NCBI RefSeq assembly: GCF_009649175.1
Contig: NZ_WJPO01000024.1
Coordinates: forward strand, 1-58,812
DNA from: Rhodovulum strictum
Lineage (GTDB): Bacteria > Pseudomonadota > Alphaproteobacteria > Rhodobacterales > Rhodobacteraceae
DNA: 58,812 nucleotides
Direction: 5' to 3'
Shown: in pieces, positions 1,439-32,744 of the stretch
Layout of the letters: each line of letters begins with the position of its first letter
Position numbering within the stretch: position 1 is the stretch's first letter
Translations under genes and position numbers: made by a program
Notes under the pieces: model-generated
What the model saw: only the letters and a program-made list of their open reading frames with translations
What the model was told of the DNA's origin: nothing
The model's database searches: none

Positions 1439-2158
1439 TCACGCGGCCAGGATGTCGTTGAGGATGTCGGCCGCCTCTTCCAGGGCTTCGACCACGTGGC
1501 GTACATGCGGACGCATCAGGGGATTGGGATCGGCCTGCTTCTGCTGGGCCACCGCATGCAGAAGCCCTTTCTCGTCCATCTCCTTGTAGACGTTGCGCCG
1601 CATCATGACGGTCTCGATGACCGGGAACCGGGCAATCGCTGCCTCGATCAAGGCCGCATCCGCGCGGGTGGTTTTCTGGTCGACCATGTTCAGGACGACG
1701 TGATGGCGCGGCAGGCTCGCCGGATCGTCGACGCGGGAGCGCAGCTTTTCGAACCAGTCGGCGGTCTGCGCGCCGACATCGAGATCCGAGGTCGAGAGCA
1801 TGACCGGCGTGACGATGTGATCGGCGAGGACTGCGATCCCGTCCGACCATTCGGCACCTACGCCTGCGGTGTCGATGAAGATGAAATCTGCCGCGTCCGC
1901 CGCATAGGCCTGCTCGATCCAGTGATCCACGGCCCCGACGGTATCGACCGATACCGAGCGCAGGAGAGGTGATCCCAGACCCGCCGCATCGGCCCGCCTG
2001 TGCCAGGCGCCGAGCACCCCGGTGCTGTCTGTATCGATCAGAAGGACCCGGCGCCCGGCTGCCACGGCGGCGCTGATCAAGGCCCGCGAGAGCGTGGTTT
2101 TGCCACTCCCCCCTTTCCGGGCCATTGCGGCGATGACCACGAGATTGTCGTTCGGCAT
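1439..2158 (-). CDS. ParA/MinD-type ATPase, VirC1-like
   Basis: A 239-aa protein with a deviant Walker A motif KGGSGKTT at residues 15-22, a following DTDST motif, and the FIFIDTAGVG segment typical of ParA/MinD/Soj ATPases. These proteins form ATP-dependent dimers on DNA and position or partition cargo; VirC1 in Agrobacterium recruits the relaxosome to the coupling protein. It is divergent from the HTH-MobC/relaxase/VirD4 genes, separated from them by the heptamer array and the oriT-like element, and followed by the RHH gene. That context favours a VirC1-type transfer role, but plasmid partitioning (ParA) remains possible. Confidence 0.75.
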   Translation of the reverse strand: MPNDNLVVIAAMARKGGSGKTTLSRALISAAVAAGRRVLLIDTDSTGVLGAWHRRADAAGLGSPLLRSVSVDTVGAVDHWIEQAYAADAADFIFIDTAGVGAEWSDGIAVLADHIVTPVMLSTSDLDVGAQTADWFEKLRSRVDDPASLPRHHVVLNMVDQKTTRADAALIEAAIARFPVIETVMMRRNVYKEMDEKGLLHAVAQQKQADPNPLMRPHVRHVVEALEEAADILNDILAA

Positions 2159-2238
2159 GGGTGCGGGCTTTCGGCGAGGATGGTGCAGGCGGGCAAAACA
2201 ACACGAAAGGCGCTATACGGTTGATTGGCGCGCGTCAA

Positions 2239-2620
2239 GCAGAAGACACGGTGCGGGCCGCCGAAGCGCGAGGCGCAGAGGACGTGACGCACCCAGCGCA
2301 AGACGTTCCGCGGCGCGCGGAGGGCGCGATGCAGAAGACGCGATGCACAAGACGCGGGACGCGCAGCGGACAGCGCGATGCGGGACACAGAAGACGGGTG
2401 CCATTCGCCACCCGGCGCAGAGCGCGATGCGCGGAACGCGGAGCGCGGGACGCGATGCAGAATGCTGCGCGCGACATTTGCCACTTGCCAGAGGGCGCGA
2501 TGCAGAACGCGGAAGACGCGCTGCAAGGGACGCGATGCGCGGCGCAAAGAGCGCACGACGCGGTGCAGGGGACGCGCGACGCGATGCAGAGAGCGCAAGG
2601 CGCGGTGCATTTGGCGGAAG
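2239..2620. repeat. Degenerate tandem heptanucleotide (7-bp) array
   Basis: About 380 bases can be cut almost throughout into 7-bp units such as GACGCGA, TGCAGAA, AGCGCGA, GACGCGG and TGCGCGG. The octamer CGCGATGC occurs eight times on the same strand, starting at 2325, 2339, 2374, 2423, 2451, 2496, 2531 and 2580. The gaps are 14, 35, 49, 28, 45, 35 and 49, so six of seven are multiples of seven. All six frames are largely open because of the repeat, and the predicted peptides show heptad-like repetition, so I treat it as non-coding. It fills the divergent gap between the VirC1-like gene and the relaxase operon, where a binding array for VirC1/RHH proteins, iterons or an overdrive equivalent would be expected. 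Confidence 0.8.
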
Positions 2621-2625
2621 ACGTG

Positions 2626-2648
2626 AAATCGGCCCTGTAGGCCGATTT
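2626..2648. other. Perfect 9-bp hairpin, terminator- or oriT-type
   Basis: AAATCGGCC and GGCCGATTT form a perfect stem around the 5-base loop CTGTA, followed by one more T. It could act as an intrinsic terminator with a short T-run. No plus-strand gene ends just before it, and it lies between the heptamer array and the oriT-like element, so a role as a relaxosome hairpin is equally possible. Confidence 0.5.
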
Positions 2649-2673
2649 TCTACATTGAGTACAAGACCTTGAT

Positions 2674-2745
2674 GCCTTCTCCGCTTGCGCTGGGAGAAGG
2701 CGGGCTTGTACGAAACTGGCAAGAAATAGGAACGTATACTTCACA
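2674..2745 (+). other. Structured oriT-like element, copy A
   Basis: A perfect 9-bp stem (GCCTTCTCC / GGAGAAGGC, 2674-2682 and 2693-2701) encloses the loop GCTTGCGCTG. Fifteen bases later comes a 29-base conserved block (2717-2745) containing GGAACGTATACTTCAC. The block ends on the A of the MobC start codon. The same arrangement recurs at 21557-21636 with a different stem sequence but matching loop and block. An inverted repeat beside a conserved motif directly upstream of mobilisation genes is the usual plan of an origin of transfer. The nick site is not identified. Confidence 0.55.
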
Positions 2746-3335
2746 TGGGCAGCAGTCGCAGACTGACCGATCAGGAGCGCCGTCAGGTCGTCCGGGAGCG
2801 GGCGAAAGGCGTCTCGGTGCGTGCAATCAGCGCGACCCTGAAGGTCTCGCCCAAGACGGTCTACAACGTGCTCGGCCGTGGTCGGTCCGCCGTATCCGCC
2901 AATGACAGCCGCACCCGTGTGCTGACCATGCGGGTTACCGACCGCGACCTTCGCGGCTTCGACGCCGCCCTTGCGCGGCGCGGCATCGCCCATCGCTCGG
3001 ACGCCCTGCGCTGCCTCATCGTGGCTGCCGACGACATCCTGCGCCCGGATGACGCCATGACAGAGGAGTTGCGGGGGCTGAGCGCGGCACTGAACCGGGT
3101 CGGCAACAACGTCAACCAGATCGCCCGGCGCCTGAACGAGGCGAAGCTCAAGGGCGAGCGTCTGCCCTACACGCCCGCCAGCCATACCGAGATCCGCGAC
3201 CTCGCGGTGCTCGTCTTCGACATGGCCGACCAGATCCAGGAGATGTTCCGCGCACGCCGCCGCGCGCTGGACCTCGAGGTCACCAGGGCCCTCGCCGGTC
3301 TGGCGCGGCCCGGGGCGGAGCATGGCGCGGAGTGA
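2745..3335 (+). CDS. HTH-MobC relaxosome accessory protein
   Basis: A 196-aa protein with two parts. Residues about 5-45 form a Hin/resolvase-like helix-turn-helix (LTDQERRQVVRERAKG, then ISATLKVSPKTVYNVL). Residues about 60-155 hold a strand-helix segment (TMRVTDRDLRGFDAALARRG) and the MobC signature LNRVGNNVNQIARRLN. MobC proteins bind oriT and help the relaxase melt and nick it. Its start codon touches the conserved oriT-like block, and the gene overlaps the relaxase gene by 14 bases, so the two are coupled. The HTH addition at the N-terminus may give extra oriT recognition or autoregulation; that part is inference. Confidence 0.75.
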   Translation: MGSSRRLTDQERRQVVRERAKGVSVRAISATLKVSPKTVYNVLGRGRSAVSANDSRTRVLTMRVTDRDLRGFDAALARRGIAHRSDALRCLIVAADDILRPDDAMTEELRGLSAALNRVGNNVNQIARRLNEAKLKGERLPYTPASHTEIRDLAVLVFDMADQIQEMFRARRRALDLEVTRALAGLARPGAEHGAE

Positions 3336-5673
3336 GGCCCGCGGCATCGGGCCCGCCCTTTTCGACCGCGACTGGAGCCGGGTCTCCGGCAGCTGGCAGG
3401 GGCTTGCCAGGGGCGCGCAGATGGTCCGGGCGGCGCGCGGCTATACGCCGGCCATCTTCAAGCCGATCTCCAAGGGCGGCTGCCATACCGGCGCGCAGCT
3501 CAAGGCCCAGCTCACCTATCTGACGACCAAGTCGATCCACATCCTCGACAGCCGCGGCACCCATGATGGCAAGAAGACCCTCACCGGGGCGGAGATTGAT
3601 CGGGTTGTGCGGCGCTTCGTGAACCAGTGGGGCGAGCGGCACAGCCCCAAGCTCGGCCATACCTCGCATCTGCTGATGGCCTTTCCGGTTGGGACCAGAG
3701 GCGAGGAGGTGCGCGCGATCACCGAGGCGATCTGCGAGCGGTTCTTTCAAGGTGAGGGGTCGCATTTCGACTACATTGCTGCAATACACCAAGATCGCGC
3801 GCATCCACATGCGCACATCGTTCTGAACCGCCGCAGCAAGGATGGCGAAATGTTCTTTCTCGGGAAGGATCACCACTTCAACTACGACGCCTTCCGGGTG
3901 GCGATGGTCGAGGCGGCGCAAGTCCACGGGATCCGGCTCGAGGCGACACGGCGTCTCGACCGGGGGGTCACGACCTACCGCGCCGAGATCGATGAGGTCT
4001 ACAAGGCCCGTGACGAGGGCCGGCCACCGGTCGAGCGTCAGCGCATGGGCGGCGATCTGGCGGCAGCCCTCCAGACGGTGGCGCGCAATGCGCTGACCTA
4101 TCGGGGGCTGGCTGTCGAGGCGTCCCGGTCGAACTTCGATGACGTGGCCGAGGCGCTCGCGCGGGCCAGCACCATCCTTGCCAGTGGCGGTCAGATCCAA
4201 TCTGATGGAGCCATCTACATGTCCAAAGACGAAACAGCGTTCGACACGCTGATCACCGAGTTTTCCAGGAACGTCCGTCAGATCGAGACGGCGATCGACC
4301 GGGCGCCGGCCGCCGAGCGGCCGGAGATCGAGCGCAAGCTTACCGATGTCCTGGCCTCTGTCGCGCATCTCAACCCGCTCGGGGATCGCTCGGCCGCACT
4401 GCTCGATGCGCCATCCCGGGACGGCGTCTACGCCCGGGCCAACATGCGCGAGGACCAGTTAGTGCGCCTCGACGACGATGCGGTGAAGGCACGTCTCACC
4501 GAGGCGCTGCAAGGTACCGGCATCGATCCCGAGGCCGTTGCCGCCCGCATGCGGGAGGGTGCGGGAAATGCAGCACTCGAACGGCAGTGGCTGGCGCAGG
4601 ATCTGCGCGCCATCGCCAGGGCCGGCGATCTCGATCTGGAGAAGGGCGAGGATCGCGAGGAAGCGCTCGACCGGCTGGAAGCCGTTCATGTCCGCCTGGG
4701 TGACGTCCTGACAGACGCGCGCATCCTGCGGGCGCTTGGCGATGTGGAAAAGACGGACGACGCCGAGGTTGCGCTGGCCTCGCGTCTGACGTTGCCGGAA
4801 CGCGATCTCACCGAGGCGCGCCCGGACGTCTTTGCGCCGTCCGAGCGGCAGGACTTCCAGCAGCTGGTCGCTCAGTTCCGCCGGACGGATTTCAACTACC
4901 CATTCTCGGATGATCCCTCAGTCCGCCGGGCAGGGGCAATCGAGGTGGAAGAGGCCCGTGCCGCCTTCAACGCCTATGCCCAGCGATCGCCCGACCATGC
5001 CGAACTGGCCTCGATGGCCTGGGACAAGATCACCGACAGCCGCAAGCCGCAGGAGTTCGCTGTCGAGGAGAAGGACCGCAGGCTTCATGTCGGCGACATG
5101 GATCTTGCGTTGCGGGATCCCTACGACCGTTTGGGTCCGATCACTGAGGAGCTTCGTACGATTGCGCGCTACCGCGCTGAAATGCCGGATGGCGATCTCA
5201 AGGCGACCATTCAGAAAGAGATTGGTCATCTGCATGCCGAGGGCGCCTCACGCGCCTATATCAGCGAGCGGAGCTTCGACATCGAGGACAAGGCCCGGCA
5301 GGATTATGCCGAACGGCGCTTTATGGCCGAGACTGCCCCAGATGTGCTGACGTTCCTGCAGCGGGCCGAGGCCGGGGATATGGAGCCGCTCACCGAGACG
5401 GCCGGGCAGCGCCTGGTCGCGCAGATCGACCGCAACCTGTCCCCGAACGCGGTCACCGCCCTGCGTGCTGGCCATGCCGATGTGCTGGAGAAGTTCACCG
5501 AGCATCCGCTGCGCCAGTTGGAACTCGCCAAGGCCTATCTCGAAAGCAGTGAGGTTACCGCGCACGGCCCTGCCATGGAGCGGGTGCTGGACGCCCTGGC
5601 CGAGGAACAGATCGAGGCGCAGCGCGCGCGTCACGCCGCGGCGCATGGCGAGAAGGGGATCACCCATGGATAA
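3322..5673 (+). CDS. VirD2/MOB-type relaxase
   Basis: A 783-aa DNA relaxase that would nick one strand at oriT and pilot it into the recipient. The N-terminal 250 residues hold the catalytic domain: motif I with a tyrosine candidate (QLTYLTTK, Tyr66), and motif III IHQDRAHPHAHIVLNRR at residues 155-171, giving the HxDxxxxHxH metal-binding triad (H156, D158, H163/H165). The long acidic C-terminal half is probably helical and variable, as in other Rhodobacterales relaxases. The gene overlaps MobC upstream and VirD4 downstream, forming a three-gene transfer operon. It is much longer than Agrobacterium VirD2 (about 420 aa), the extra length being in the C-terminal region. Confidence 0.88.
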   Translation: MARSEARGIGPALFDRDWSRVSGSWQGLARGAQMVRAARGYTPAIFKPISKGGCHTGAQLKAQLTYLTTKSIHILDSRGTHDGKKTLTGAEIDRVVRRFVNQWGERHSPKLGHTSHLLMAFPVGTRGEEVRAITEAICERFFQGEGSHFDYIAAIHQDRAHPHAHIVLNRRSKDGEMFFLGKDHHFNYDAFRVAMVEAAQVHGIRLEATRRLDRGVTTYRAEIDEVYKARDEGRPPVERQRMGGDLAAALQTVARNALTYRGLAVEASRSNFDDVAEALARASTILASGGQIQSDGAIYMSKDETAFDTLITEFSRNVRQIETAIDRAPAAERPEIERKLTDVLASVAHLNPLGDRSAALLDAPSRDGVYARANMREDQLVRLDDDAVKARLTEALQGTGIDPEAVAARMREGAGNAALERQWLAQDLRAIARAGDLDLEKGEDREEALDRLEAVHVRLGDVLTDARILRALGDVEKTDDAEVALASRLTLPERDLTEARPDVFAPSERQDFQQLVAQFRRTDFNYPFSDDPSVRRAGAIEVEEARAAFNAYAQRSPDHAELASMAWDKITDSRKPQEFAVEEKDRRLHVGDMDLALRDPYDRLGPITEELRTIARYRAEMPDGDLKATIQKEIGHLHAEGASRAYISERSFDIEDKARQDYAERRFMAETAPDVLTFLQRAEAGDMEPLTETAGQRLVAQIDRNLSPNAVTALRAGHADVLEKFTEHPLRQLELAKAYLESSEVTAHGPAMERVLDALAEEQIEAQRARHAAAHGEKGITHG

Positions 5674-7648
5674 GGGCAGGATCGCGGGCGGGATCCTCAG
5701 CCTCACGCTGATCGGTCTTGCCATCGGCTATGTCGTGGCAACGGGCTACCTGACCCTGCGCTACGGGCTCTCGACCGAGCGGATCGATTTCACGCTGCTT
5801 GCGCGGGAATACAACGCGTTGGGGGCCAACGCCCCGCGGGATTTCCTCTGGGTGAACCTGATCCTCGGGGTAAGCGGTCTGGCGGCATTCCTGCTCGGCA
5901 TCACGCTTCTGGGCGAGGCGCTGACCCGGTTCGGCACGACGCATTGGCAGACCCGGGGCGAGATGAAGCGCAACGGGTTCTTCGCCAAGCCGGGCGGCGG
6001 CTTCCTTCTGGGCAAGCTCGGCCCCCCGAACTCGAAGCGTCCCTTCCTCGTCTCCAAGACCTTTCCGCATGCGCTGATCGTGGCCCCGACGGGCCGGGGC
6101 AAGGGCGTTGGTTTCGTGATCCCGAACCTGCTCACCTACAAGGGCTCAGCTGTGGTGCTCGATGTGAAGGGCGAGAACTTCCGCGAGACCGCGCGCTTCC
6201 GCGCCAGCATGGGCGACAAGGTCTTCCGGTTCGCCCCGACCGACTGGGACCGCCCGACGCACCGCTACAACCCGCTGGCGCGCATCGCGGCCATGACCAA
6301 TCCCGACCGGCAGCAGATGGAGCTGAAGCTCACCGCCAAGCTCTTCCTGCAAACCGACAACGAGAAGCTGAGCGGGCTCCTGGCAGGCGGTATCGATCTC
6401 TTCGTCGCGGCGGGCCTTCTGGCCTTCGAGCGCGGGGTGCCCACCATCGGCGAGATCTACCGCATCACCGCCTCCGGCGGCGACAAGCAGAAGGAATACC
6501 TCAAGCGCTCCCAGGAGGTGAGGAACAAGTCCGCCAAGCTGATCTTCGAGCGCATGGCGTCGACCAACAACGACACCCTGACCTCTTACCTGTCGCTCCT
6601 GATGACCTCGGGTCTCGACACCTGGGACAACCGCGCGATCGACGCGGCGACCGCGACCTCCGACTTCTCCTTCCGGGACATCCGGCGCCGCCCGCATGCG
6701 ATCTATCTCGTGGTCGAGTCCGAGATGATCCGGCCCCTGGCCCCGCTGATCCGGCTGTTCTTCTCCGACCTGATCGCTTCGCTGCAGGCGCAGGAGCCCG
6801 GGGAGGATGAGCCCTGGCCCGTGATGATCATGCTCGACGAGTTCGACCGGCTCGGGAAAATGCCGATCGTGGCCGAGAGCATCAAGACGCTGCGGTCATT
6901 CGGCGGCAACCTCGCCATTGTCACCCAGACCATCCCGGCGCTCGACGAGATCTATGGCGAGAATACCCGTCGCTCGCTTCAGGGCGGTGCTGGCGTGAAG
7001 CTCTACCTCACCCCGTCCGAGCAGAAGACCATCGAGGAGCTGAGCCAGGCTGTCGGCAAGACCACCAAGCGCGTGGTGACCCGATCCCGCGCCGTCGGGC
7101 GTAATCCCTTCGAGGGGCGCAGCGTTTCCGAACGGACCGAGGACACCCCGCTGCTGACCGAGGACCAGGCTCGCCGCATGGATCTGGACGAGGTGATCCT
7201 CGTGATCGACGCGCAGATGCCGATCCGGGCACGGCGGATCAAGTATTTCGAGGACCCGGCGCTGAAGGTACTGCATGCCGGCCAAGCCGGGACTTTCCCG
7301 TATCCGGATGAAGACGGGCTGCGGCGAGATCGGCAGATTGCGGAAACCCGTGGGACTGTGGAACGGCTGATGCGGGAGCTGATGGCCGTGAAAGCGTCGG
7401 GCGCAGTGATGCCGGAGGCGGGGGCCGCCGCGGGATCGGACATCGCGCCGGCTGGTGACGCACGGCTCGAACCGACGAGGTCCTCGCGTGCCCGTGGCCG
7501 GGCGGCCCGCGCGCTCGCGGGCGCGGTGAATTCGGAGCCGGCGCCCCTGACGATCGACCTGGACCGGTTGGGCATAGCTGGCGCGGACCAGGCGGGGCTC
7601 GTCGCCGCCGTGCAAACCACGCGCTCGATCATTGCGGAATATGCTTGA
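5666..7648 (+). CDS. virD4: Type IV coupling protein VirD4/TraG
   Basis: A 660-aa inner-membrane ATPase that links the relaxosome to the VirB channel. The N-terminus has two membrane segments (residues about 7-30 and 62-85). Walker A is APTGRGKGVG near residues 140-149, and Walker B is MIMLDEFDRLG near 388-397. I chose the ATG at 5666, preceded by GAAGGGG, which overlaps the relaxase stop by 8 bases (ATGGATAA); the longer open frame upstream merely runs inside the relaxase gene. The C-terminal 130 residues are Ala- and Arg-rich, with little similarity expected. Confidence 0.92.
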   Translation: MDKGRIAGGILSLTLIGLAIGYVVATGYLTLRYGLSTERIDFTLLAREYNALGANAPRDFLWVNLILGVSGLAAFLLGITLLGEALTRFGTTHWQTRGEMKRNGFFAKPGGGFLLGKLGPPNSKRPFLVSKTFPHALIVAPTGRGKGVGFVIPNLLTYKGSAVVLDVKGENFRETARFRASMGDKVFRFAPTDWDRPTHRYNPLARIAAMTNPDRQQMELKLTAKLFLQTDNEKLSGLLAGGIDLFVAAGLLAFERGVPTIGEIYRITASGGDKQKEYLKRSQEVRNKSAKLIFERMASTNNDTLTSYLSLLMTSGLDTWDNRAIDAATATSDFSFRDIRRRPHAIYLVVESEMIRPLAPLIRLFFSDLIASLQAQEPGEDEPWPVMIMLDEFDRLGKMPIVAESIKTLRSFGGNLAIVTQTIPALDEIYGENTRRSLQGGAGVKLYLTPSEQKTIEELSQAVGKTTKRVVTRSRAVGRNPFEGRSVSERTEDTPLLTEDQARRMDLDEVILVIDAQMPIRARRIKYFEDPALKVLHAGQAGTFPYPDEDGLRRDRQIAETRGTVERLMRELMAVKASGAVMPEAGAAAGSDIAPAGDARLEPTRSSRARGRAARALAGAVNSEPAPLTIDLDRLGIAGADQAGLVAAVQTTRSIIAEYA

Positions 7649-8707: not shown

Positions 8708-9340
8708 ATGCCGGATCCGCTTGCCCTTCGTCCCGCCCGTGTGCACGAGGCCGAGGGGCCGGGCCGTCGGGCCTTTGCGGTGTTCCAGGCCGCGCGCCAT
8801 CCCGGGCCGCTGGTCTGGATCCTGCCCGCCCATGCCCCGCAGATGCCGATGCCGCCCGGCCTGCCGCCGGGAATCGCCAGCCGTCTGCACCTGGTGCGGC
8901 CGAAGGGCGAGACCGACCTGCTGTGGGCGATCGAGGAATCGCTGCGCGCCGCCCCTGTCGGCCTGGTGATCGCCGAGCCGGAAAAGCCCCTGTCGCTGAC
9001 CGCGGGTCGCCGGTTTCAACTGGCGGCCGAAGCCGGGCAGACCACGGGCCTGATCCTGATCCGCGATGGCGCGGGCAGCAATGCCGCCGAGACGCGCTGG
9101 CACTGTGCGCCCCGTGCCGCCGATGCGGCGGACTCGACTCTGCAGTGCTGGTCACGTATCAAGAACAAAAGAGGAACTACGGGACGCTGGATTGTGAACT
9201 GGGATGGCGCGTCGGCTGCTTTCGATCTGGTTTCCGCGACTGGCGAGCGACACGAGCCTGCGCCGCCGCCCCGTCCCGGGGCCCTTCGCGCTGACCCTGC
9301 GCAGGGGCAATGCCGACCATCTGCACTGCCTGACGCCTGA
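8708..9340 (+). CDS. imuA: ImuA, mutasome accessory protein
   Basis: A 210-aa RecA/SulA-like protein of the ImuA-ImuB-DnaE2 translesion mutasome. The segment PLVWILPAHAP and the C-terminal block KNKRGTTGRWIVNWDG are typical of alphaproteobacterial ImuA; no intact Walker A is seen. The frame opens upstream, and ATG codons at 8696 and 8708 are both possible; I use 8708 as the more conservative choice. The 3' end overlaps imuB by 137 bases. A second LexA-like box lies inside the coding sequence at 9163-9177. ImuA acts in the cytoplasm with ImuB at stalled replication forks. Confidence 0.75.
   Translation: MPDPLALRPARVHEAEGPGRRAFAVFQAARHPGPLVWILPAHAPQMPMPPGLPPGIASRLHLVRPKGETDLLWAIEESLRAAPVGLVIAEPEKPLSLTAGRRFQLAAEAGQTTGLILIRDGAGSNAAETRWHCAPRAADAADSTLQCWSRIKNKRGTTGRWIVNWDGASAAFDLVSATGERHEPAPPPRPGALRADPAQGQCRPSALPDA
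9163..9177 (-). promoter_or_regulatory. Second LexA-type box inside imuA, before imuB
   Basis: On the minus strand this reads GTTCCTCTTTTGTTC, matching GTTC-N7-GTTC and identical at 13 of 15 bases to the box at 8551. It ends 26 bases before the imuB start. It encodes Lys-Asn-Lys-Arg-Gly-Thr in ImuA with AT-rich codons (AAA, AGA, GGA, ACT) that are rare in this GC-rich region, as if the DNA sequence itself were under selection. Confidence 0.65.
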
Positions 9341-10679
9341 GGCCGAGGTGCGCGGGCTGTCGCGCGGCATGGCGCTGGCCGATGCCCGCGCGATCTGCCC
9401 CGAGCTGGCCACCCGCCCCGCCGATCTGGCGCGCGAGGCGGCGGCGCTGGCCAGCCTGCGCCGCTGGGCGGGGCGCTATGCGCCGATGGTGGCCAGCGAC
9501 GGGCCGGACGGGCTGATCGCCGACATCACCGGCGTTGCGCATCTTTTCGGCGGCGAGGAAGAGCTGCGCGCCGATCTGCATGCCCGGCTGGACCGCGCGG
9601 GGCTGACGGCGGCCAGCGCCATCGCCGACAGCCGCGGCGCGGCCCATGCGCTGGCGCGCCATGGCGGCGGGATCCTGGCCGAGGGCGCGCTGTCCGAAGG
9701 GGTCGGGCGGCTGCCGGTCTCGGCGCTGCGCATCGACCATGCGACGGCCGAGGCGCTGGCGCGCGTGGGGCTGACCCGCATCGCCGATCTGACCGCGCTG
9801 CCGCGGGCGCCGCTGGCCCGGCGCTTCGGGCCGGGGCTGGTGCTGCGGCTGGACCAGATCCTGGGCCATCAGCCCGAGCCGGTGGCCGCGGCCCCCGATC
9901 CCCCGCATTTCGGGGTGCGGATGACCCTGCCCGAGCCGATCGGGTTGCAGGCCGATGTGATGGCGGGACTGGGCCGCCTGCTCGAGCGGCTTTGCCGGAC
10001 GCTGGCCCTGCATCAGCGCGGCGCGCGGCGGCTGCGGCTGGAACTGCGCCGGGTGGATCGCGGCGTTGCCCATGTCGAGATCGGCCTGGCCCGCCCGCTG
10101 CGCGACCCCGACCGGATCGCGGCGCTGTTCGTCAAGGGCGTGCAGGAGATCGACGCCGGTTTCGGCATCGACGCGCTGCGGCTGAGCGCGCCCGTCACCG
10201 AACCGCTGGCGCCCGAGCAGATCGGCGGTGGCGGCGCGGCGGTGCGGGGCGAGGATGCGCTGGCCGACCTGGTCTCGCGGCTGGGCAACCGGATCGGCTT
10301 TGACCGGGTGCTGCGCCTGCTGCCCGCCGACAGCCGCATCCCCGAGCGCAGTTTCCTGATCGCCCCTGCCGCCTATAGCGCCCCCGCCCCGGAACCGCCG
10401 CGCCGCGGTCCCGCCCGGCCGATCACGCTCTTTCCGCCCGAGCCTGTCAGTGCGGTTTCCGGCCACCCGCCCGCGCGGTTTCGATGGCGGCGGATGGAGT
10501 TCGCCACGCTGCGCGCCATCGGCCCCGAACGCATTGCACCGGAATGGTGGCTGGACGATCCGGCCTGGCGCACGGGGCTGCGCGATTACTGGCGGATCGA
10601 GACGAAACAGGGCCCGCGGCTGTGGCTGTTTCATACCCCGCTGGCGCCCGGCTGGCAGGTGCAGGGGGAATTCGCATGA
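9204..10679 (+). CDS. imuB: ImuB, Y-family polymerase-like mutasome hub
   Basis: A 491-aa Y-family (DinB-like) protein: MARRLLSIWFPRLASD at the start, palm and finger segments (SRGMALADARAICPEL, GLIADITGVAHLFGGEEEL), then an HhH-type segment and a C-terminal tail ending WQVQGEFA. ImuB proteins lack the full set of polymerase acidic residues and instead bridge DnaE2, ImuA and the sliding clamp. The 3' end overlaps dnaE2 by 4 bases (ATGA), so translation is coupled. Confidence 0.9.
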   Translation: MARRLLSIWFPRLASDTSLRRRPVPGPFALTLRRGNADHLHCLTPEAEVRGLSRGMALADARAICPELATRPADLAREAAALASLRRWAGRYAPMVASDGPDGLIADITGVAHLFGGEEELRADLHARLDRAGLTAASAIADSRGAAHALARHGGGILAEGALSEGVGRLPVSALRIDHATAEALARVGLTRIADLTALPRAPLARRFGPGLVLRLDQILGHQPEPVAAAPDPPHFGVRMTLPEPIGLQADVMAGLGRLLERLCRTLALHQRGARRLRLELRRVDRGVAHVEIGLARPLRDPDRIAALFVKGVQEIDAGFGIDALRLSAPVTEPLAPEQIGGGGAAVRGEDALADLVSRLGNRIGFDRVLRLLPADSRIPERSFLIAPAAYSAPAPEPPRRGPARPITLFPPEPVSAVSGHPPARFRWRRMEFATLRAIGPERIAPEWWLDDPAWRTGLRDYWRIETKQGPRLWLFHTPLAPGWQVQGEFA

Positions 10680-13600
10680 CCCGCTATGCCGAGCTGTGCG
10701 TCACCACCAATTTCACCTTCCTGACCGGCGCCTCGCATCCCGAGGAACTGGTGGTGCGCGCCGCCGAACTGGGGCTGGACGCCATCGCGATCACCGACCG
10801 CAATTCGGTCGCGGGGGTGGTGCGGGCGTTCTCGGCGCTGAAGGAACTGGCGCGGCTGGCGGATGAAGGCCCCGCGATCCGCTCGCAGCGGGTGATGGAC
10901 CATTCCAGCCGGCAGAGCGTCGCGGCGGGCAGCGCGGCCATCGCCCGGGCCGCGATGCTGCCGAAGCTGATCGTGGGGGCGCGGCTGGTGCTGGCCGACA
11001 GCCCGGTGGAGTGGCTGGCGCTGCCCACCGATGCCGCCGCCTGGTCGCGGCTGACGCGGATGCTGTCGCTCGGTAAGCGGCGGGCGGCCAAGGGTCAATG
11101 CCACCTGACCCGCGCCGATCTCGAGGAATGGGGCGAGGGGCTGATCCTGATCGCGCTGCCCCCCGACCCGATGGAGCACGCCACCCCTCCGGACCTGCGC
11201 CGCCTTGCGCGCCGCTTTCCGGGGCGCTGCTTTCTGGGGGCGGCGCCGCAATATGACGGGCGCGACCAGGCCCGGCTTGACCGGCTTGCGGGGATGGCGC
11301 AGGCGACCGGGATGCCGATGGTGGCGGTGGGCGAGGTGCTGATGCATCGCGCCGCCCGCCGCCCGCTGGCCGATGTGCTGACCTGCCTGCGCGAGGGCTG
11401 CACCATCGACAGCATCGGCACCCGGCGCCTTGCCAATGGCGAAAGGCGGCTGAAATCGGGGGCCGAGATGGCGCGGCTGTTCCACCGCTATCCCGCCGCG
11501 ATCCGCCGCACGCTGGAAATTGCCGATGCCTGCGCCTTCCGGCTGGATGACCTGCGCTATCAATACCCGGACGAGGCGCTGAACGGCGAACCCGCGCAGG
11601 ACCGGCTGGAACGGCTGACGCGCGAGGGGCTTTCGTGGCGCTATCCCGAAGGCCCGCCGCCGAAGATCGTCGCACGCGTCGACAAGGAACTGACCCTGAT
11701 CCGCGAGGTCGGCTATGCGCCCTATTTCCTGACGGTGCACGACATCGTGGCCTTTGCCCGCTCGAAGGGGATCCTTGCCCAGGGCCGCGGCTCGGCGGCC
11801 AATTCGGTGGTCTGCTACCTGCTTGGCATCACCGAGGTGCCGCCCGAGTCCATCACCCTGATCTTCGAACGCTTCATCTCGAAAGAGCGCGGCGAGCCGC
11901 CCGATATCGACGTGGATTTCGAGCATGAGCGGCGCGAGGAGGTGATCCAGTGGATCTATGACCGCTACAGCCGCGAACGCGCCGGGCTGACCGCCACCGT
12001 GATCCATTTCCGAAGCCGCGCCGCGATCCGCGAGGTGGGCAAGGTCATGGGGCTGAGCCAGGACGTGATCGCGCGGCTGTCGGGCCAGATCTGGGGCTGG
12101 TCCGCGACCGCGCCGGGCGAGGACCGGCTGCGCGAGGCCGGGCTCGATCCCGCCGACCATCGCGTGATGCTGGCCACCCGCCTGATCGCCGAGATCATCG
12201 GCTTTCCCCGCCACCTTTCCCAGCATGTCGGCGGCTTCGTCATCACCCAGGGTCGGCTGGACGAGTTGTGCCCGATCGAGAACGCCGCGATGGAGGATCG
12301 CACCATCATCGAATGGGACAAGGACGATATCGACGCGCTGGGGCTGATGAAGGTGGACATCCTTGCGCTGGGGATGCTGACCGCGATCCGCAAGGCGTTC
12401 GGGCTTCTGGAAATCCACCGCAAGCGCCGCCTGACGCTGGCCAATGTCCCGCCCGAGGACCGGGCGGTCTATGACATGCTCTGCCGGGCCGATGCCGTGG
12501 GTGTGTTCCAGGTCGAAAGCCGGGCGCAGTTGAACTTCCTGCCCCGGATGCGGCCGCGCAAGTTCTACGACCTGGTCTGCGAGGTCGCCATCGTCCGCCC
12601 CGGCCCGATCCAGGGCGGCATGGTGCATCCCTTCCTGAACCGCCGCATGGGCCGCGAGCCGGTCGAGGATCTGGGCCCCGCGATGATGGAGGTGCTGGGC
12701 CGCACCTATGGCGTGCCGCTGTTCCAGGAACAGGCGATGCAGATCGCCGTGGTCGCCGCGGGCTTCACACCGGCCGAGGCCGACCGGCTGCGCCGCAGCC
12801 TTGCAACCTTCAAGCGGATGGGCACCATCGGCGGTTTCCGCGACCGGTTCGTGTCGGGGATGCTGGAGCGCGGCCATGATGCCGGTTTCGCCGAACGCTG
12901 CTTTGCCCAGATCGAGGGCTTCGGCTCCTACGGGTTCCCCGAAAGCCACGCGGCCAGCTTTGCACGCCTTGTCTATGTCTCGGCCTGGCTGAAATGCCAC
13001 CACCCGGCGATCTTTGCCTGCGCCCTGCTGAACAGCCAGCCGATGGGCTTCTACGCCCCCGCGCAGCTTGTCCGCGACGCGCGCGAGCACGGGGTCGAGG
13101 TACGGCCCGTCTCTGTCAACCATTCCGACCGGGACTGCACGCTGGAGCCGCGCTCGGACGGGGCGCTGGCGCTGCGGCTGGGGTTTCGCCAGATCAAGGG
13201 CCTGCGCGCGGAGGATGCCGCCTGGATCGCCGCCGCCCGCGGCAATGGCTACCCGGATGTCGAAAGCCTGTGGCGCCGGGCGGGGGTCGGGCCGGAGGCG
13301 CTGGAACGGCTGGCCGAGGGCGACGCCTTTGCCGCCCTGGGCCTTGCCCGCCGCGATGCGCTCTGGGCCGCGCGCGCGTTGCGGGCGCCTGCGCCGCTGC
13401 CGCTGTTCGGCGCGGATGGCGAGGGCGGCGCGGAGCCCGCGCTCGAGCTGCCGGCGATGACGCTGGGGCAGGAGGTGATCGAGGATTACCTGTCGCTGCG
13501 GCTCTCGTTGCGCGCCCATCCGCTGGAACTGCTGCGCCCGGCCCTGCCCGAAAGCCTGCCCCATGACCGGCTGGCCGGGGCGAGCGGCCGCGTCACCGTC

Positions 13601-13978
13601 GCCGGCCTTGTCATCACCCGCCAGCGGCCCGGCACCGCCTCGGGCGTGATCTTCGTGACGCTCGAGGACGAAACCGGCGTGGCGAATGTGGTGGTCTGGA
13701 CGCGGGTCTACGAACGCTTCCGCCAGGCCGTGATCGCCGGGCGGCTCTTGCGCGTCACCGGCCGGATCGAACGCGACGGCCCGGTGGTGCATGTCATCGC
13801 CGAACAGGTCGAGGATCTGTCGCCCCGGCTCGCCACCCTCGGCCGACCGGTGCCGATCCCCGCCAATGACGGTCGCGCGGATGAGACCCGCCGCCCCGCA
13901 GGCGGCAGCCTGCGCCCCTCGGCCCGCCACCCGCGCGACCAGGCCAGGCGCCTCTTTCCCAGCCGGGATTTTCACTAG
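10676..13978 (+). CDS. dnaE2: Error-prone DNA polymerase III alpha subunit DnaE2
   Basis: A 1100-aa C-family polymerase for translesion synthesis. The N-terminal PHP domain (ELCVTTNFTFLTGASHPEEL, AIAITDRNSVAGVVRA) is followed by palm and fingers with the catalytic acidic cluster DIDVDFEHERREE near residues 410-420, a YGVPLFQEQAMQ segment, and a C-terminal OB domain near residues 974-1010 (RVTVAGLVITRQRPG, IFVTLEDETG). The length matches DnaE2 and is slightly shorter than replicative DnaE. Start: the ATG at 10676 overlapping the imuB stop. The longer upstream frame runs inside imuB. It acts as the catalytic member of the ImuAB-DnaE2 mutasome. Confidence 0.93.
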   Translation: MTRYAELCVTTNFTFLTGASHPEELVVRAAELGLDAIAITDRNSVAGVVRAFSALKELARLADEGPAIRSQRVMDHSSRQSVAAGSAAIARAAMLPKLIVGARLVLADSPVEWLALPTDAAAWSRLTRMLSLGKRRAAKGQCHLTRADLEEWGEGLILIALPPDPMEHATPPDLRRLARRFPGRCFLGAAPQYDGRDQARLDRLAGMAQATGMPMVAVGEVLMHRAARRPLADVLTCLREGCTIDSIGTRRLANGERRLKSGAEMARLFHRYPAAIRRTLEIADACAFRLDDLRYQYPDEALNGEPAQDRLERLTREGLSWRYPEGPPPKIVARVDKELTLIREVGYAPYFLTVHDIVAFARSKGILAQGRGSAANSVVCYLLGITEVPPESITLIFERFISKERGEPPDIDVDFEHERREEVIQWIYDRYSRERAGLTATVIHFRSRAAIREVGKVMGLSQDVIARLSGQIWGWSATAPGEDRLREAGLDPADHRVMLATRLIAEIIGFPRHLSQHVGGFVITQGRLDELCPIENAAMEDRTIIEWDKDDIDALGLMKVDILALGMLTAIRKAFGLLEIHRKRRLTLANVPPEDRAVYDMLCRADAVGVFQVESRAQLNFLPRMRPRKFYDLVCEVAIVRPGPIQGGMVHPFLNRRMGREPVEDLGPAMMEVLGRTYGVPLFQEQAMQIAVVAAGFTPAEADRLRRSLATFKRMGTIGGFRDRFVSGMLERGHDAGFAERCFAQIEGFGSYGFPESHAASFARLVYVSAWLKCHHPAIFACALLNSQPMGFYAPAQLVRDAREHGVEVRPVSVNHSDRDCTLEPRSDGALALRLGFRQIKGLRAEDAAWIAAARGNGYPDVESLWRRAGVGPEALERLAEGDAFAALGLARRDALWAARALRAPAPLPLFGADGEGGAEPALELPAMTLGQEVIEDYLSLRLSLRAHPLELLRPALPESLPHDRLAGASGRVTVAGLVITRQRPGTASGVIFVTLEDETGVANVVVWTRVYERFRQAVIAGRLLRVTGRIERDGPVVHVIAEQVEDLSPRLATLGRPVPIPANDGRADETRRPAGGSLRPSARHPRDQARRLFPSRDFH

Positions 13979-21095: not shown

Positions 21096-21497
21096 ATGGT
21101 CGACGGCGCCCCCGAACCAGACTGCGACTATCTGCGGATGATCGGAACCGAACCATCGGGCCGGGGGCTGGAGAGGTTCCTGCGGCCCCGGCCCACCCTC
21201 GCCGAACGGTTTGCCCAAGGGAAGCCTTGCGGCAGGACGTGCCGCGCAGCAGCCACGCCGAGTTCCGGCCCGATCCCGATCGCCCTGATCCCGTTGCCGT
21301 CATCGCGGCCCAGAATGCGACGCGGATCGCCAGTCTGGTGCCGCTCCGCTTGGCCCGGATGGCCGAATCGCCCTTCGGCTTCCTGCGCGGTTCCGCCGCC
21401 GTCATGGCTCGGGATCTGGCGCATACGCCGCGCACGGGGCTTGAGGCGATGGCCTGCGGCGACATGCATGTCGGCAATTTTGGCGTCTTCGCATCCC
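21096..21497 (+). pseudogene. DUF2252 protein, frameshifted and 3'-truncated
   Basis: The initial frame (ATG 21096) reads RPTLAERFAQGK; the conserved continuation EALRQDVPRSSHAEF through RMAESPFGFLRGSAAVMARD and CGDMHVGNFGVFAS lies in another frame, consistent with one lost base near 21226. Homology stops after about 130 residues, whereas DUF2252 proteins are around 430 aa. The break falls 60 bases before the second oriT-like element, so the 3' part was probably lost in a rearrangement at that element. Confidence 0.75.
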
Positions 21498-21556
21498 GTT
21501 TCCCGCATCGCGCATGCTTCACCTCGGCCCATCGAGCAAACCCACCGAAACGGACT

Positions 21557-21636
21557 CCAAGCCCCCCGCCTCCGCTGACGCTGGGAGGCGGGGGGCTTGG
21601 AGGAAGTTGGCAAGAAGTAGGAACGTATACTTCACA
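21557..21636 (+). other. Structured oriT-like element, copy B
   Basis: A perfect 17-bp stem (21557-21573 pairing with 21584-21600; inner part CCGCCTCC / GGAGGCGG) encloses the loop GCTGACGCTG. After 7 bases follows the 29-base block at 21608-21636, which is 28/29 identical to copy A (2717-2745). The stem sequence differs from copy A while pairing is kept, so the fold appears conserved rather than the sequence. Copy B is not followed by mobilisation genes; it lies between the truncated DUF2252 gene and hicAB. Confidence 0.6.
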
Positions 21637-21722: not shown

Positions 21723-21977
21723 ATGAACAGCAGGCACCGCAAGACCCTTGCCGCCGTCTTCACCGATCCGGTGTCAGGCACCATCGAATGGGCGGCAGTC
21801 GAAAGCCTGCTGCTGGCCGCAGGGGCGCGGCTGATCGAAGGGCGCGGGTCGCGGGTGCGGTTCGAAAAGGATGGCGAGGTAGCGACGTTCCACCGCCCGC
21901 ACCCCGCAAAGGAAGCGAAGCGATACCAGGTGCGCGATGCCCGCGACTTCCTGGAACGGATCGGGGTTAGACCATGA
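21723..21977 (+). CDS. hicA: HicA-like mRNA interferase toxin
   Basis: An 84-aa basic protein with the HicA dsRNA-binding-like fold: an N-terminal helix, then GARLIEGRGSRVRFEKDGE and FHRPHPAKEAKRYQVRDARDFLERIGV. HicA toxins cleave mRNA and are neutralised by HicB. This is the long HicA subtype with FHRPHP and lacks the GSH motif (Arg replaces His at that point), as in several annotated relatives. It overlaps hicB by 4 bases (ATGA). Confidence 0.82.
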   Translation: MNSRHRKTLAAVFTDPVSGTIEWAAVESLLLAAGARLIEGRGSRVRFEKDGEVATFHRPHPAKEAKRYQVRDARDFLERIGVRP

Positions 21978-22306
21978 CCAACACCATGACCTACAAGGGC
22001 TATGCGGCCCGGATCGAGTATGACGACGAAGACGGGCTTTTCACGGGCCGGATTGCCGGTATCCGTGACGGTGTGGGCTTTCATGCCGACACCGTGGAAG
22101 GGCTGCGCGAAGCCTTCCATGAGGCTGTCGAAGACTACACCGAAACCTGTGCCAGGATCGGCAAGGAACCGCAGAAGACCTATTCAGGGCAGGTCATGTT
22201 CCGGGTCAGCCCCGAGGTTCACCGCAAGGCCGCGCTCGCCGCCGAGCTGTCGGGCAAGAGCCTGAACCAGTGGGCCGAAGAAGTGCTTGACCGGGCCGCA
22301 GGCTAG
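21974..22306 (+). CDS. hicB: HicB-like antitoxin
   Basis: A 110-aa protein with an N-terminal partial RNase-H-like HicB fold (YKGYAARIEYDDEDGLFTGR, VGFHADTVEGLREAFHEAV) and a C-terminal ribbon-helix-helix (VMFRVSPEVHRKAALAAEL, SLNQWAEEVL) that would bind its own operator. It neutralises HicA and autorepresses the operon. Translation is coupled to hicA. The pair probably stabilises the replicon. Confidence 0.85.
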   Translation: MTNTMTYKGYAARIEYDDEDGLFTGRIAGIRDGVGFHADTVEGLREAFHEAVEDYTETCARIGKEPQKTYSGQVMFRVSPEVHRKAALAAELSGKSLNQWAEEVLDRAAG

Positions 22307-27198: not shown

Positions 27199-27860
27199 TC
27201 GGAACGGTCCGATCGGATGGCATATTGGGTGACGGTGAAGCCGAAGGGGTTCTGCCAGACATCGTCGATCGAGCGGGTCCGTTCGGGACGAAAGGCAAAC
27301 ATGAGCGTGGCGGTGAACATCCCCGCCTGCGCCCCCTGGGGACCGGAGAGCCGCTTCCTCAGCCTTACCTGGGCGCGGTTCTCGCCGATCAGCGTGATCG
27401 AGGCGATCTCGACGGCCATCTCGGAGGATGGTCCATAGCGCGTTGGCGGATAGCTCTCCTGCCCCGAGGTCCACATCGCGCGCATGCTGGCCTCGGCTGC
27501 CCCGGTCGATTGGGCCAGAACCCGGCGCACGCGCAGGTCGTTATCGAGCTGGTTGTAGCTCTCGCGGTCGAGGATGTAGCGGTAGATCTGCGCCTCGATG
27601 ATCGCGGGCCGCTCGGCGAGCGAGACCGCGGCGACGCTGGCATTCGGCAGCGCCATGCCGGTTTCCGGGTCATAGGGCACGACCACGGGCGGCGGCGTTT
27701 CGATCATCAGCGCGACCGCGGCCGCAGCCAGACAGCCGATCACGCCGAATCCCGCGCCGCTGATCCCGATCACCTGCCAGAGCCGTTCGCGGCGCAGCGC
27801 GCCATGGACGAGTTCTTCCTCGACGTGTTCGCGCGCGCTCATCGCCGACGCTCCGCTCAT
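27195..27860 (-). CDS. virB8: VirB8-type inner-membrane assembly factor
   Basis: A 221-aa bitopic protein: short cytoplasmic N-terminus, one membrane segment (residues about 32-52), and a periplasmic NTF2-like domain (NPF near the C-terminus, DDVWQNPFGFTVTQY; ESYNQLDNDLRV). VirB8 nucleates assembly of the channel. ATGA overlaps tie it to virB5 upstream and virB9 downstream. Confidence 0.9.
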   Translation of the reverse strand: MSGASAMSAREHVEEELVHGALRRERLWQVIGISGAGFGVIGCLAAAAVALMIETPPPVVVPYDPETGMALPNASVAAVSLAERPAIIEAQIYRYILDRESYNQLDNDLRVRRVLAQSTGAAEASMRAMWTSGQESYPPTRYGPSSEMAVEIASITLIGENRAQVRLRKRLSGPQGAQAGMFTATLMFAFRPERTRSIDDVWQNPFGFTVTQYAIRSDRSE

Positions 27861-28654
27861 GGCCGCAGGCTCGGCAGGGTGAAATCCATGTAGCGCCGCT
27901 CCTCGGCGATGGTGGCGGCATCCACGACCCCGGCATTGCCCGCGCCGACGGTCTGGATCGCCTCGAGCTCCCACATCCGCGTCATGGCGATGGCCAGTTC
28001 GGCGGTGACCCGGGTGTTGTGGTCCATCGCGGCCTTCAGGTCCTCCATCTCGGGGATCTTCGCGACCAGCCGCTCGACCCGTTCGAGCGACTGGGCGGCC
28101 TCGGCATGGCTGTTCTGAGCCGCGGCCGACATGACCGCGCCGGTGGCGGCGCGCGTGGCCACGCCCTCGGCCCCGGGTTTGCCGCTGGTCGCGATCTCGC
28201 GCAGCGAGGTCTCGTCAAAGCCGGCGCGCGCCAGCGCCTGTTCCATCTGCGTGCGCATGGGTCCTGCCGTGACGCCGAGAAGGTTGCTCCAGTCGCCCGC
28301 CTGGATGCCGCGAATGAGGCCTGGCAGATCGCGGAACTTGGCCTTGAGGAGCCCGTCGAGACCGTCGCCCATGACCATGCCGAGGATGCTGCGCGGGCCG
28401 GTGAGCGAGGCATGCATCTGTTGCAACTGATCGAGCTGGTTCTGGACCACGTCGAGCTGTTCGAGGGCATTGTCCAGAAGATCGGTCTGGATCCCGAAAT
28501 CCTGCAGCATCTGCTGGAGCTGGCGGATTTCCTGGGCGATGTTCTGGGTGTCAACCGTGGGCACACCCTGCGCGGTGACAGGGCCCGCGAGGGCGGTGCT
28601 CACCGCGAGGGCCACGGCGCCGGTGGCGAGGGAACGGGTCAGGCGCGGGATCAT
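27857..28654 (-). CDS. virB5: VirB5-type minor pilin
   Basis: A 265-aa secreted protein with a signal peptide (cleavage near PVTAQG), an N-terminal coiled helix (QEIRQLQQMLQDFGIQTDL), a glycine-containing middle, and a C-terminal helix ending RRYMDFTLPSLRP. VirB5 sits at the pilus tip. The gene immediately upstream encodes a protein with the same start of mature sequence (AQGVPT) and the same kind of end (FMNFTL), making a tandem related pair. Confidence 0.85.
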   Translation of the reverse strand: MIPRLTRSLATGAVALAVSTALAGPVTAQGVPTVDTQNIAQEIRQLQQMLQDFGIQTDLLDNALEQLDVVQNQLDQLQQMHASLTGPRSILGMVMGDGLDGLLKAKFRDLPGLIRGIQAGDWSNLLGVTAGPMRTQMEQALARAGFDETSLREIATSGKPGAEGVATRAATGAVMSAAAQNSHAEAAQSLERVERLVAKIPEMEDLKAAMDHNTRVTAELAIAMTRMWELEAIQTVGAGNAGVVDAATIAEERRYMDFTLPSLRP

Positions 28655-29844
28655 CGCAACGTCTCCAGGGTGAAGTTCATGAACTGCCGATCGGCGGCCC
28701 GGGCCGCGGCCATGGCGAGCTGTTCCTCGCTGAGCGGTTGGGTATGGACGGCCTTGATCCGGGTGCGGATCGCGACCAGCCGGGCGAGCTCGGCCCGGGC
28801 ATAGGTGTTGAGCGCGATGGCCTCGTTCAGGTCCCCGGTCTCGCCGATGCGGGCAATGATGTCCTGGACGCGCAGCGCGGCCGCCTGGACCGAGACCAGC
28901 GAATAATCGCCATAGACGCCCGCGCCATGGGCCGTGAGGCTGAAGCTCGCGTTGGCCAGCAGGACAGGGTCGATGGTGCCGAGGGCATCGATCCCGCCCA
29001 CGGCCGCAAGGTAGCGGTTGTATTGCTGGGGGATCACCACGACATAGGTCTGGGTCTCCGCGAAGGGGGGGACGCCGCCATGTTGCTGCACCCGGCCCGG
29101 GCCCGCGTTATAGGCCGCGAGCGCGTGGATGATGTTGCCATCGAACATGCCCAGCATCTGCGCGAGGTAGCGTGCGCCGCCCGTGACCTGCAGCCAGGGG
29201 TCGTCGTAATAGGCGGGGTAGATCCCGAGATCGCCCGCGGTGTCGGGCATGATCTGGGTCAGGCCGAAGGCGCCCGCGGGCGAGCGGGCGCCGATCTGGA
29301 ATCGGCTTTCCTGCCAGATCAGGGCCTGCAATAGACAGCGCCATTGCACGAGCGTGAGCCCGGCGCGGCCCACGCCGGGCAGGCCGTGGGTATGGCGCGC
29401 GGCGCGGATGATCAGCTCCTCCACCCCTTCCCGTGCATCGCCGAACATTCGCGCGGCGGCCGGGTTGGGATCCTCGGGCGCATAGAGGCTGGCGGCGGCG
29501 GTGCTGATGCCTGCTGCTTCCCCCTGCCCGGCCTCGAGCCCGGCCACGCTGCCCGCGACGTTACCGGCGCGCAACGTCATGGCATCCATGATCCCGTTCA
29601 GCGCCGCGAGCTGCTGGCGCTCGATCTCGGCCAGTTCCTGCGCACGGGCGAGGCGGTCCTGCTGAAGTGCGAGATCCTGTTCGCGCTGCTCGACGATCGC
29701 CTGCCGCCCCGCGAAGAGGCGCATGTCGAAGGTCGGCACCCCTTGGGCGGAGGCCGGGGCGCCGCACCATCCCCCGAACGAGCTGGCGAGTGCGCTCGCA
29801 AGGAGCGCGCACCGCGCCGCGCCATGGAAGCAGGTGGCGGTCAT
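28651..29844 (-). CDS. Lytic transglycosylase embedded in a VirB5-like protein
   Basis: A 397-aa secreted protein. Residues 33-90 resemble the beginning of mature VirB5 (AQGVPTFD, then a long Gln/Glu-rich helix), residues about 165-285 form an SLT lytic transglycosylase (IWQESRF with catalytic Glu179, GAFGLTQIMPDTAGDLG, ALAAYNAGPGRVQQ), and residues about 330-397 resemble the VirB5 C-terminal helix, ending FMNFTLETLR. It would cut peptidoglycan locally for channel assembly while attached to the VirB5 part. A separate VirB1-like SLT gene exists at 33.1 kb, so the operon has two. It overlaps virB5 by 4 bases. Confidence 0.8.
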   Translation of the reverse strand: MTATCFHGAARCALLASALASSFGGWCGAPASAQGVPTFDMRLFAGRQAIVEQREQDLALQQDRLARAQELAEIERQQLAALNGIMDAMTLRAGNVAGSVAGLEAGQGEAAGISTAAASLYAPEDPNPAAARMFGDAREGVEELIIRAARHTHGLPGVGRAGLTLVQWRCLLQALIWQESRFQIGARSPAGAFGLTQIMPDTAGDLGIYPAYYDDPWLQVTGGARYLAQMLGMFDGNIIHALAAYNAGPGRVQQHGGVPPFAETQTYVVVIPQQYNRYLAAVGGIDALGTIDPVLLANASFSLTAHGAGVYGDYSLVSVQAAALRVQDIIARIGETGDLNEAIALNTYARAELARLVAIRTRIKAVHTQPLSEEQLAMAAARAADRQFMNFTLETLR

Positions 29845-29848
29845 CGGA

Positions 29849-30061
29849 TCAGCCGCCCGTCCCCGGCATCACGAAGTCGCAGGCCGACGCGCGCCGCGTG
29901 ACCTCGCCGCCCGTGCCGGCGATCGAGGGCTTGGACGCCACGCCTGCCGGCGCCTCGCGGAAGGTGAAGCAGTTCGCTTTGGCAGGGTGATGCTGGGCGC
30001 AGGCCGAGAGGCTCGAGATCAGGCCGATCAGCGCAAGGCTGCGGGCAATGGGACGGGTCAT
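29849..30061 (-). CDS. Small lipoprotein, VirB7-like by position
   Basis: A 70-aa protein with a signal sequence and lipobox (LISSLSAC), so Cys21 would be lipidated. A second Cys near residue 31 and one near 62 could form disulfides, as VirB7 does with VirB9. It overlaps the virB4 stop (ATGA) and precedes the SLT-VirB5 gene by 4 bases. Lipoproteins of this size in VirB operons stabilise the outer-membrane core. No sequence family is recognised; the role is inferred from context. Confidence 0.7.
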   Translation of the reverse strand: MTRPIARSLALIGLISSLSACAQHHPAKANCFTFREAPAGVASKPSIAGTGGEVTRRASACDFVMPGTGG

Positions 30062-32722: not shown

Positions 32723-32744
32723 GGCGGGACTCGGGGTCGGAAGC

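Follow-up and report, generated by a model that had tools for sequence, protein, structure and literature searches.

A hairpin and a 29-nt block lying between virC1 and mobC, directly 5′ of mobC-virD2-virD4 (copy A), very probably constitute the origin of transfer (oriT) of a conjugative plasmid of Rhodovulum strictum. The window analysed here is the entire contig of this plasmid (G000:C16; 58,812 nt). A second copy in the window (copy B) would, with the same high probability, be an orphan oriT, namely a fragment of some 95 bp derived from a family of elements that we refer to as class B. Look-alike sites on small plasmids and on chromosomal islands without a relaxase could travel by means of a borrowed enzyme.

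Two copies of a hairpin and block in the window

The original prediction described a repeated 29-nt block, and the two blocks are indeed identical at 28 of 29 positions. A match of this quality is expected about 4 × 10−11 times by chance, for one query in this window at equal base frequencies. An 18-nt core, searched with up to three mismatches, was found in the window at copies A and B only, and in 0 of 100 shuffles. Copy A abuts the start codon of mobC, as had been noted: the A of the codon (2745) is the last base of the block. The inner stem of copy A measures 9 bp, in agreement with the prediction, but the hairpin as a whole had been drawn too short, as it also has an outer stem. This outer stem forms nine of ten pairs and is separated from the inner stem by a 5-nt bulge. 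In copy B, the stem is 19 bp long (21555–21573/21584–21602), not the 17 bp given earlier.

Table 1. Features of the window discussed in the text
Feature	Position	Strand	Details
VirC1/ParA-like ATPase gene, divergent from mobC	1439–2158	−	NCBIfam VirC1 E 1.7e-21 and ParA_partition E 3.6e-23, each under its curated cut-off
Copy A hairpin	2659–2711	+	Outer stem 2659–2668/2702–2711, inner stem 2674–2682/2693–2701, loop 2683–2692; folding, covariation
Copy A 29-nt block, candidate nick/relaxosome region	2717–2745	+	Hexamer GTATAC 2734–2739
mobC, N-terminal HTH and MobC domain, relaxosome accessory protein	2745–3335	+	Pfam HTH_38 and MobC, above cut-off
VirD2-type relaxase gene	3322–5673	+	Pfam Relaxase E 5.8e-12; best NCBIfam model VirD2 E 1.8e-21, under equivalog cut-off
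TraG/VirD4 coupling protein gene	5666–7648	+	Pfam T4SS-DNA_transf E 5.1e-82
DUF2252 gene fragment, left of copy B	21323–21496	+	58 of 392 model positions
Copy B stretch matching the third site, on contig C77	21543–21639	+	89% identity
Copy B hairpin, class B arms, 19 bp	21555–21602	+	
Copy B 29-nt block, orphan	21608–21636	+	Hexamer GTATAC 21625–21630
HicA and HicB genes, right of copy B	21723–22306	+	Pfam
T4SS genes	27857–34087	−	VirB5-type 27857–28654; SLT 28651–29844 and 33056–34087; VirB4-type 30058–32652; Pfam

Copy A adjoins the relaxase and accessory-protein genes, as expected of an oriT. The relaxase has a MobA/VirD2 nuclease domain (Pfam PF03432, 46.5 bits against a cut-off of 24.6); a sequence search of the PDB with this protein gave no useful match. 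MobC was modelled by AlphaFold with a mean pLDDT of 82.7 and a pTM of 0.51, and in this model residues 36–48 form the third helix of the N-terminal helix-turn-helix (HTH). A Foldseek search with the model returned zero matches at E 0.001, and among the weak matches the HTH fitted the DNA-binding domain of Tc3 transposase (probability 0.97, E 1.5). Copy B has no mobC and is flanked by a DUF2252 fragment and a HicAB pair. A third copy lies on another contig of the same genome (G000:C77:10751-10848), where it precedes a mobC frame that diverges from the MobC family after about 30 residues.

Several other features of the contig were observed. GC-rich direct repeats based on GCGCGATGC occupy 2205–2640, between virC1 and the putative oriT, with start spacings that are mostly multiples of 7 (five of six in family D3). 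Words of GCGCGATGC recur in the opposite orientation 5′ of a class B site (L035), and the repeat region is possibly overdrive-like. A perfect 9-bp hairpin with a T run, resembling a terminator, lies just 5′ of the copy A hairpin (2626–2649). This conjugative contig also carries a DNA polymerase III alpha gene preceded by one for a Y-family polymerase (9204–13978), a chemotaxis cluster with MCP, CheA-like, CheR and CheW genes (41895–56248) and, near its end, a HipA gene (56770–58119), a family found beside class B sites as well.

Covariation of the hairpin arms

Hairpins A and B each fold better than all 200 of their shuffled counterparts, with z values of −5.8 and −7.4. When 51 distinct arm sets are compared, standard pairs fill 896 of the 969 pair cells and 94 cells are changed on both sides, a result equalled by none of 500 shuffles. 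This set excludes 12 of 84 distinct upstream sequences, which fell outside the two hairpin classes described below, had no such hairpin or were out of register. Covariation of the arms is seen both within and between hairpin classes.

Compensatory change had been read as a sign that a folded single strand is selected. The two-sided stem changes are real and general, but they do not distinguish a folded single strand from duplex DNA, because a symmetric protein that recognises a double-stranded inverted repeat would give rise to covariation of this kind as well. The data support an inverted repeat under selection, either as a single-strand fold or as duplex DNA. The hairpin adjoins the block, our candidate nick region, and may be the counterpart of the inverted repeat beside the nick of a MOBP-type oriT.

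Occurrence on plasmids and in genomes

A 101-nt query matched 23 of the 72,556 plasmids in PLSDB, 19 of which are typed conjugative. We read the regions of 15 of these 23 plasmids: in 11 the block is followed by mobC, relaxase and coupling protein genes, and two hold the block without mobC. On Pukyongiella p4 (L011), the block and mobC are present with no VirD2 match in the 2.6 kb after mobC, and in Sagittula (L052) a separate mobC is not annotated. The block-mobC-relaxase arrangement recurs on conjugative plasmids of Rhodobacterales and of a few Hyphomicrobiales.

Moreover, the block is present in 28 of 394 genomes of the family, and its reversed control in none. The contexts that we read were conjugative plasmids, small plasmids, an island and relics, not those of the common non-mobile repeat named as the counter-case of the original prediction. 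A scan of 84,980 species genomes matched at least 116 stretches, with 117 sites among the matches listed; 80 of these at least 116 matches were assigned to taxa, namely Rhodobacterales, other Alphaproteobacteria and metagenome-assembled genomes labelled 'Proteobacteria'. No phage in INPHARED matched the block. The single match in IMG/VR (L004) was rejected, as it shares the 17-nt search string alone, without the remainder of the block. A class B query against PLSDB gave 24 partial matches, none covering more than 80% of the query.

Two hairpin classes and two MobC classes

The hairpins fall into two classes, and the class B hairpin precedes a different MobC, about 40% identical to the class A protein. 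Among the 117 sites in the matches listed, a class A hairpin stands with a class A MobC at 82 and a class B hairpin with a class B MobC at 20, with no crossed case; hairpin class equals MobC class at all 102 listed sites where both could be called. Two MobC-bearing sites (L103 and L113) have hairpins outside the class rules. MobC is absent at 13 of the 117 listed sites: five of these stretches end within 140 nt, and the other eight, with over 1,000 nt after the site, are orphans.

The two classes differ in what follows. With at least 1,400 nt downstream, and among the matches listed, VirD2 comes after 67 of 72 class A MobC genes and after none of the 14 class B genes; five class A genes with enough sequence, as well as L011, have no VirD2 match downstream. 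Together with the conjugative typing of most matched plasmids, this context gives good support to copy A as the candidate oriT that the original prediction took it for. Both classes occur together in two of the 394 genomes (class A in 20, class B in nine), a co-occurrence that is not significant (P = 0.07).

The ends of a class B element were located in one case, the genome G135. Here, the element that holds the class B site is about 13.2 kb long. It extends from tRNA-Arg(CCT) to an imperfect repeat of the tRNA 3′ end, and a tyrosine-integrase gene (PF00589) is found beside the far end. The element (L175:807-13813) carries HipA and an EruA-like NACHT antiphage-type protein that scores 940 bits, below the family cut-off of 1,000. 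Sequence resembling the island's own left end is also seen past the far repeat, as if from another element. In G188, a SIR2/STAND protein, a possible part of the element, is encoded 2.4 kb from the class B site. In the single-contig genome G369, a class B site is present and PF03432 has no match genome-wide. An integrase and attachment-site repeats (in G135 only), and the lack of VirD2 behind all 14 class B MobC genes among the matches listed, are the features of a relaxase-less integrative element, where absence of a relaxase refers to searches for VirD2 and PF03432. We read class B elements as putative integrative mobilizable elements that would bring an oriT and a MobC and no relaxase.

Copy B has arms of class B and matches the C77 site with 89% identity across 97 bp, so that most likely it derives from such an element as a fragment. 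It is not a second oriT of the copy A type but an orphan whose hairpin belongs to the class seen at chromosomal sites.

The hexamer of the block agrees with the MobC recognition helix

In the block, the TGGCAAGAAATAGG half is nearly invariant, although the search patterns demanded most of this half; one pattern left TGGC free, yet TGGC is present at the sites listed. The GTWWAC hexamer varies, and it agrees with the recognition helix of MobC at 96 of 97 distinct readable sites. GTATAC of class A goes with S-P/Q/R-K-T (30 of 30 sites), GTTAAC of class A with S-L-K (43), S-L-M (1) or S-R-V (2), making 46 of 46, and GTAAAC with S-x-R (20 of 20). The exception is L103, which combines SLKT with GTATAC and has a broken mobC. 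Among the sites listed, those set aside as not fitting the helix search string are the C77 site, L024/L038/L108 (non-MobC frame), L030/L097 (frameshifted), L073, L080 and L060/L137. By eye, L073 and L080 conform to the rule; L060/L137, one sequence seen twice, do not, with STRT and GTATAC. In the loci of the 394 genomes, a set that overlaps the earlier sites, the rule holds at all 25 readable sites of 31.

We then followed both partners on trees. On a VirD2 tree of 73 loci (those with distinct hairpin-MobC pairs and a VirD2 start, from 100 sites with a MobC frame), hexamer and helix change five times each and are concordant in 73 of 73. On a tree of the C-terminal part of MobC they change twice. 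Block distance correlates with HTH distance when VirD2 is held constant (partial correlation 0.76), and hardly with VirD2 distance when the HTH is held constant (0.05). For the hairpin, the corresponding values of 0.45 with the MobC HTH and 0.37 with VirD2 do not decide between the proteins. Our first guess, that MobC reads the hairpin, is weakened by the inner stem, which changes once on the VirD2 tree against five changes of the MobC helix.

Linked inheritance could also cause the match between hexamer and helix, because the hexamer and the HTH codons are only about 110 bp apart. Independent contrasts on supported branches number one on the VirD2 tree and two on the tree of the MobC C-terminal part, numbers that do not permit a test. 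We give roughly even chances to a broader proposal, in which MobC residues 36–37, at the start of the recognition helix, act as a three-letter code: P/Q/R-K for GTATAC, mostly L-K for GTTAAC, and x-R for GTAAAC. This code would partition a Rhodobacterales-wide network in which VirD2-type plasmids serve as helpers to small plasmids and to tRNA islands with defence genes. These passengers would move by means of oriT mimics that match, some of them bringing their own MobC as an adaptor, and one plasmid having two mimics of different hexamers.

Sites without mobC

The same site is found on elements without a relaxase, as are the oriT mimics of the pWBG749 type, and some plasmids typed non-mobilizable carry the bare block. 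Haematobacter pOT1-8 has the block without mobC, in a strain that also holds the class A plasmid pOT1-7. A 10-kb plasmid of Leisingera has a block without mobC, and a 15-kb plasmid of Roseinatronobacter has two, in addition to a 'plasmid recombination protein' gene. We take the latter to be of the Mob/Pre type, and it may give this plasmid another way to move. The Szabonella contig L040 (9,073 nt) carries an RPA replication gene and two inverted orphan blocks, one with GTATAC and one with GTTAAC; an overlap of 127 nt between its ends makes it a probable circle of about 8.9 kb, which has a type IIG-like restriction-modification gene as well. Phaeobacter pP13_h gave a weak match (83% of 36 nt, E 0.1).

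In five orphans without a class A or B hairpin (L008, L009, L108, L112 and L181), the core tends to be preceded by GTGAAG and followed by CTTCA(C), which form a short inverted repeat around it; the stem reaches 10 bp in L008.

Proposed mechanism and alternative explanations

The sequence, its context, the covariation and the association of hexamer and helix are observations; binding, nicking and transfer, and whatever use is made of copy B, are inferred. On copy A, MobC would assemble together with the VirD2-type relaxase. The best candidate for the binding site of the MobC HTH is the GTWWAC half, and for the target of the relaxase the TGGCAAGAAATAGG half; the relaxase may also act at the hairpin. 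One strand would be cut within the block or next to it and, with the relaxase attached, would pass via TraG/VirD4 to the VirB channel. The resident MobC would be expected to read the GTATAC hexamer of copy B as well, although copy B has no mobC of its own.

As to which strand is cut, one variant of this mechanism places a T-DNA-border-like nick on the minus strand at CTTG/CCA (between 2720 and 2719), so that the hairpin would enter the recipient first. We regard this variant as tentative, with chances somewhat short of even. The best NCBIfam model of the relaxase is VirD2, and TGGCAAGAAATA matches 10 of the first 12 letters of a left-border primer printed in PMC5816537. However, this likeness is within chance: 183 of 3,962 GC-matched random windows are as good with the printed 20 letters, 276 of 3,962 with 25 letters, five of them beyond the printed ones, and 74 of 3,962 for the class B block. 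We therefore rejected an identity with T-DNA borders. The MOBP nick core ATCCTG is also absent from both strands of the virC1-mobC interval (1454–3035). In RP4 and tfs4, as the available text of PMC3772185 describes them, the inverted repeat lies 5′ of the nick, which would favour the plus strand here.

We consider it unlikely that the block is only a promoter/operator of mobC, autoregulated by MobC through GTWWAC, with a transcriptional hairpin and with orphans as debris. Such an operator would explain why the block ends at the mobC start codon and why the hexamer tracks the MobC HTH, but orphans retain 24–29 nt of the block without mobC, two of them on one 8.9-kb plasmid, and the best-conserved half lies away from the hexamer, which a MobC operator alone does not require. 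The operator and oriT roles are compatible with each other. Finally, it is highly improbable that one 18.9-kb mobile element has copies A and B as its ends or recombination sites, or that a site-specific recombinase acts on them: they are two direct copies 18.9 kb apart and copy B sits at a mosaic joint between the DUF2252 fragment and HicAB, but in the genome scan the block is single in 115 of 116 stretches among the matches listed, A and B differ in hairpin class with the arms of B matching the C77 site and not A, and the regions read generally hold no block-linked recombinase gene, although some orphan plasmids do have a resolvase gene.

Comparison with known systems

With an oriT at copy A, the plasmid family that carries large replicons between members of Rhodobacterales and some Rhizobiaceae would have a specific, testable transfer origin. 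Plasmids at present typed non-mobilizable could be reclassified by the motif, and the motif suggests that islands bearing antiphage-type cargo and no relaxase form a family. It also offers a natural data set on joint specificity change of an HTH accessory protein and its oriT.

In the accessible parts of two Roseobacter genome papers, oriT appears in general terms only, and conjugation of VirD2-bearing plasmids is inferred from genes alone (PMC4148953, PMC4511512). A term search of the genome paper of the pAMI8 host did not find the term (PMC3925955), and the oriTs described in the available text of a Paracoccus plasmid paper are others (PMC3832669). Four stretches of the block were present in no paper in a literature text search, and we found no description of this oriT, its lineage or the HTH code in the literature searched; most subscription papers lie outside both searches.

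The site resembles MOBP oriTs and VirD2-cut T-DNA borders, as far as the available parts of PMC3772185, PMC5816537 and PMC5985610 describe them, in its PF03432 relaxase, its inverted repeat by a short conserved region and the VirC1-like ATPase encoded next door. It differs from them in lacking the ATCCTG core, and the likeness to borders is not significant.

Class B elements, with integrase, oriT and accessory protein and without relaxase, are reminiscent of MGIVchHai6 and MGIVmi1, which in the available text carry an integrase, an oriT and a relaxosome accessory protein, have no relaxase and use a conjugative plasmid as helper (PMC5704250, PMC5397120; for terms applied to relaxase-less islands, see the accessible part of PMC11389934). 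Whereas those gammaproteobacterial islands pair MobI with an IncA/C MobH relaxase and their mobilisation was demonstrated, class B elements would pair MobC with a putative VirD2-type helper, as deduced from sequence.

The closest parallel to the proposed hexamer code is the pWBG749 family of staphylococci. According to the available text of PMC8136818, its oriT subtypes are recognised by a small accessory protein, whose gene lies between oriT and the relaxase gene; orphan oriT mimics occur on plasmids without transfer genes, some of them holding more than one subtype, and specificity evolves separately from the other transfer genes. Here, too, subtypes of the site are associated with the accessory protein, orphan sites occur and one plasmid has blocks with two different hexamers, and specificity would change independently of the remaining transfer genes. 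In pWBG749, however, the reader is the ribbon-helix-helix protein SmpO, and its specificity was proved by binding and mating (PMC8136818); here it would be the HTH recognition helix of an alphaproteobacterial MobC, as judged from sequence comparison. The principle of oriT mimics and relaxase-less islands is known already; within the literature searched, this lineage and its putative HTH code appear to be the new part.
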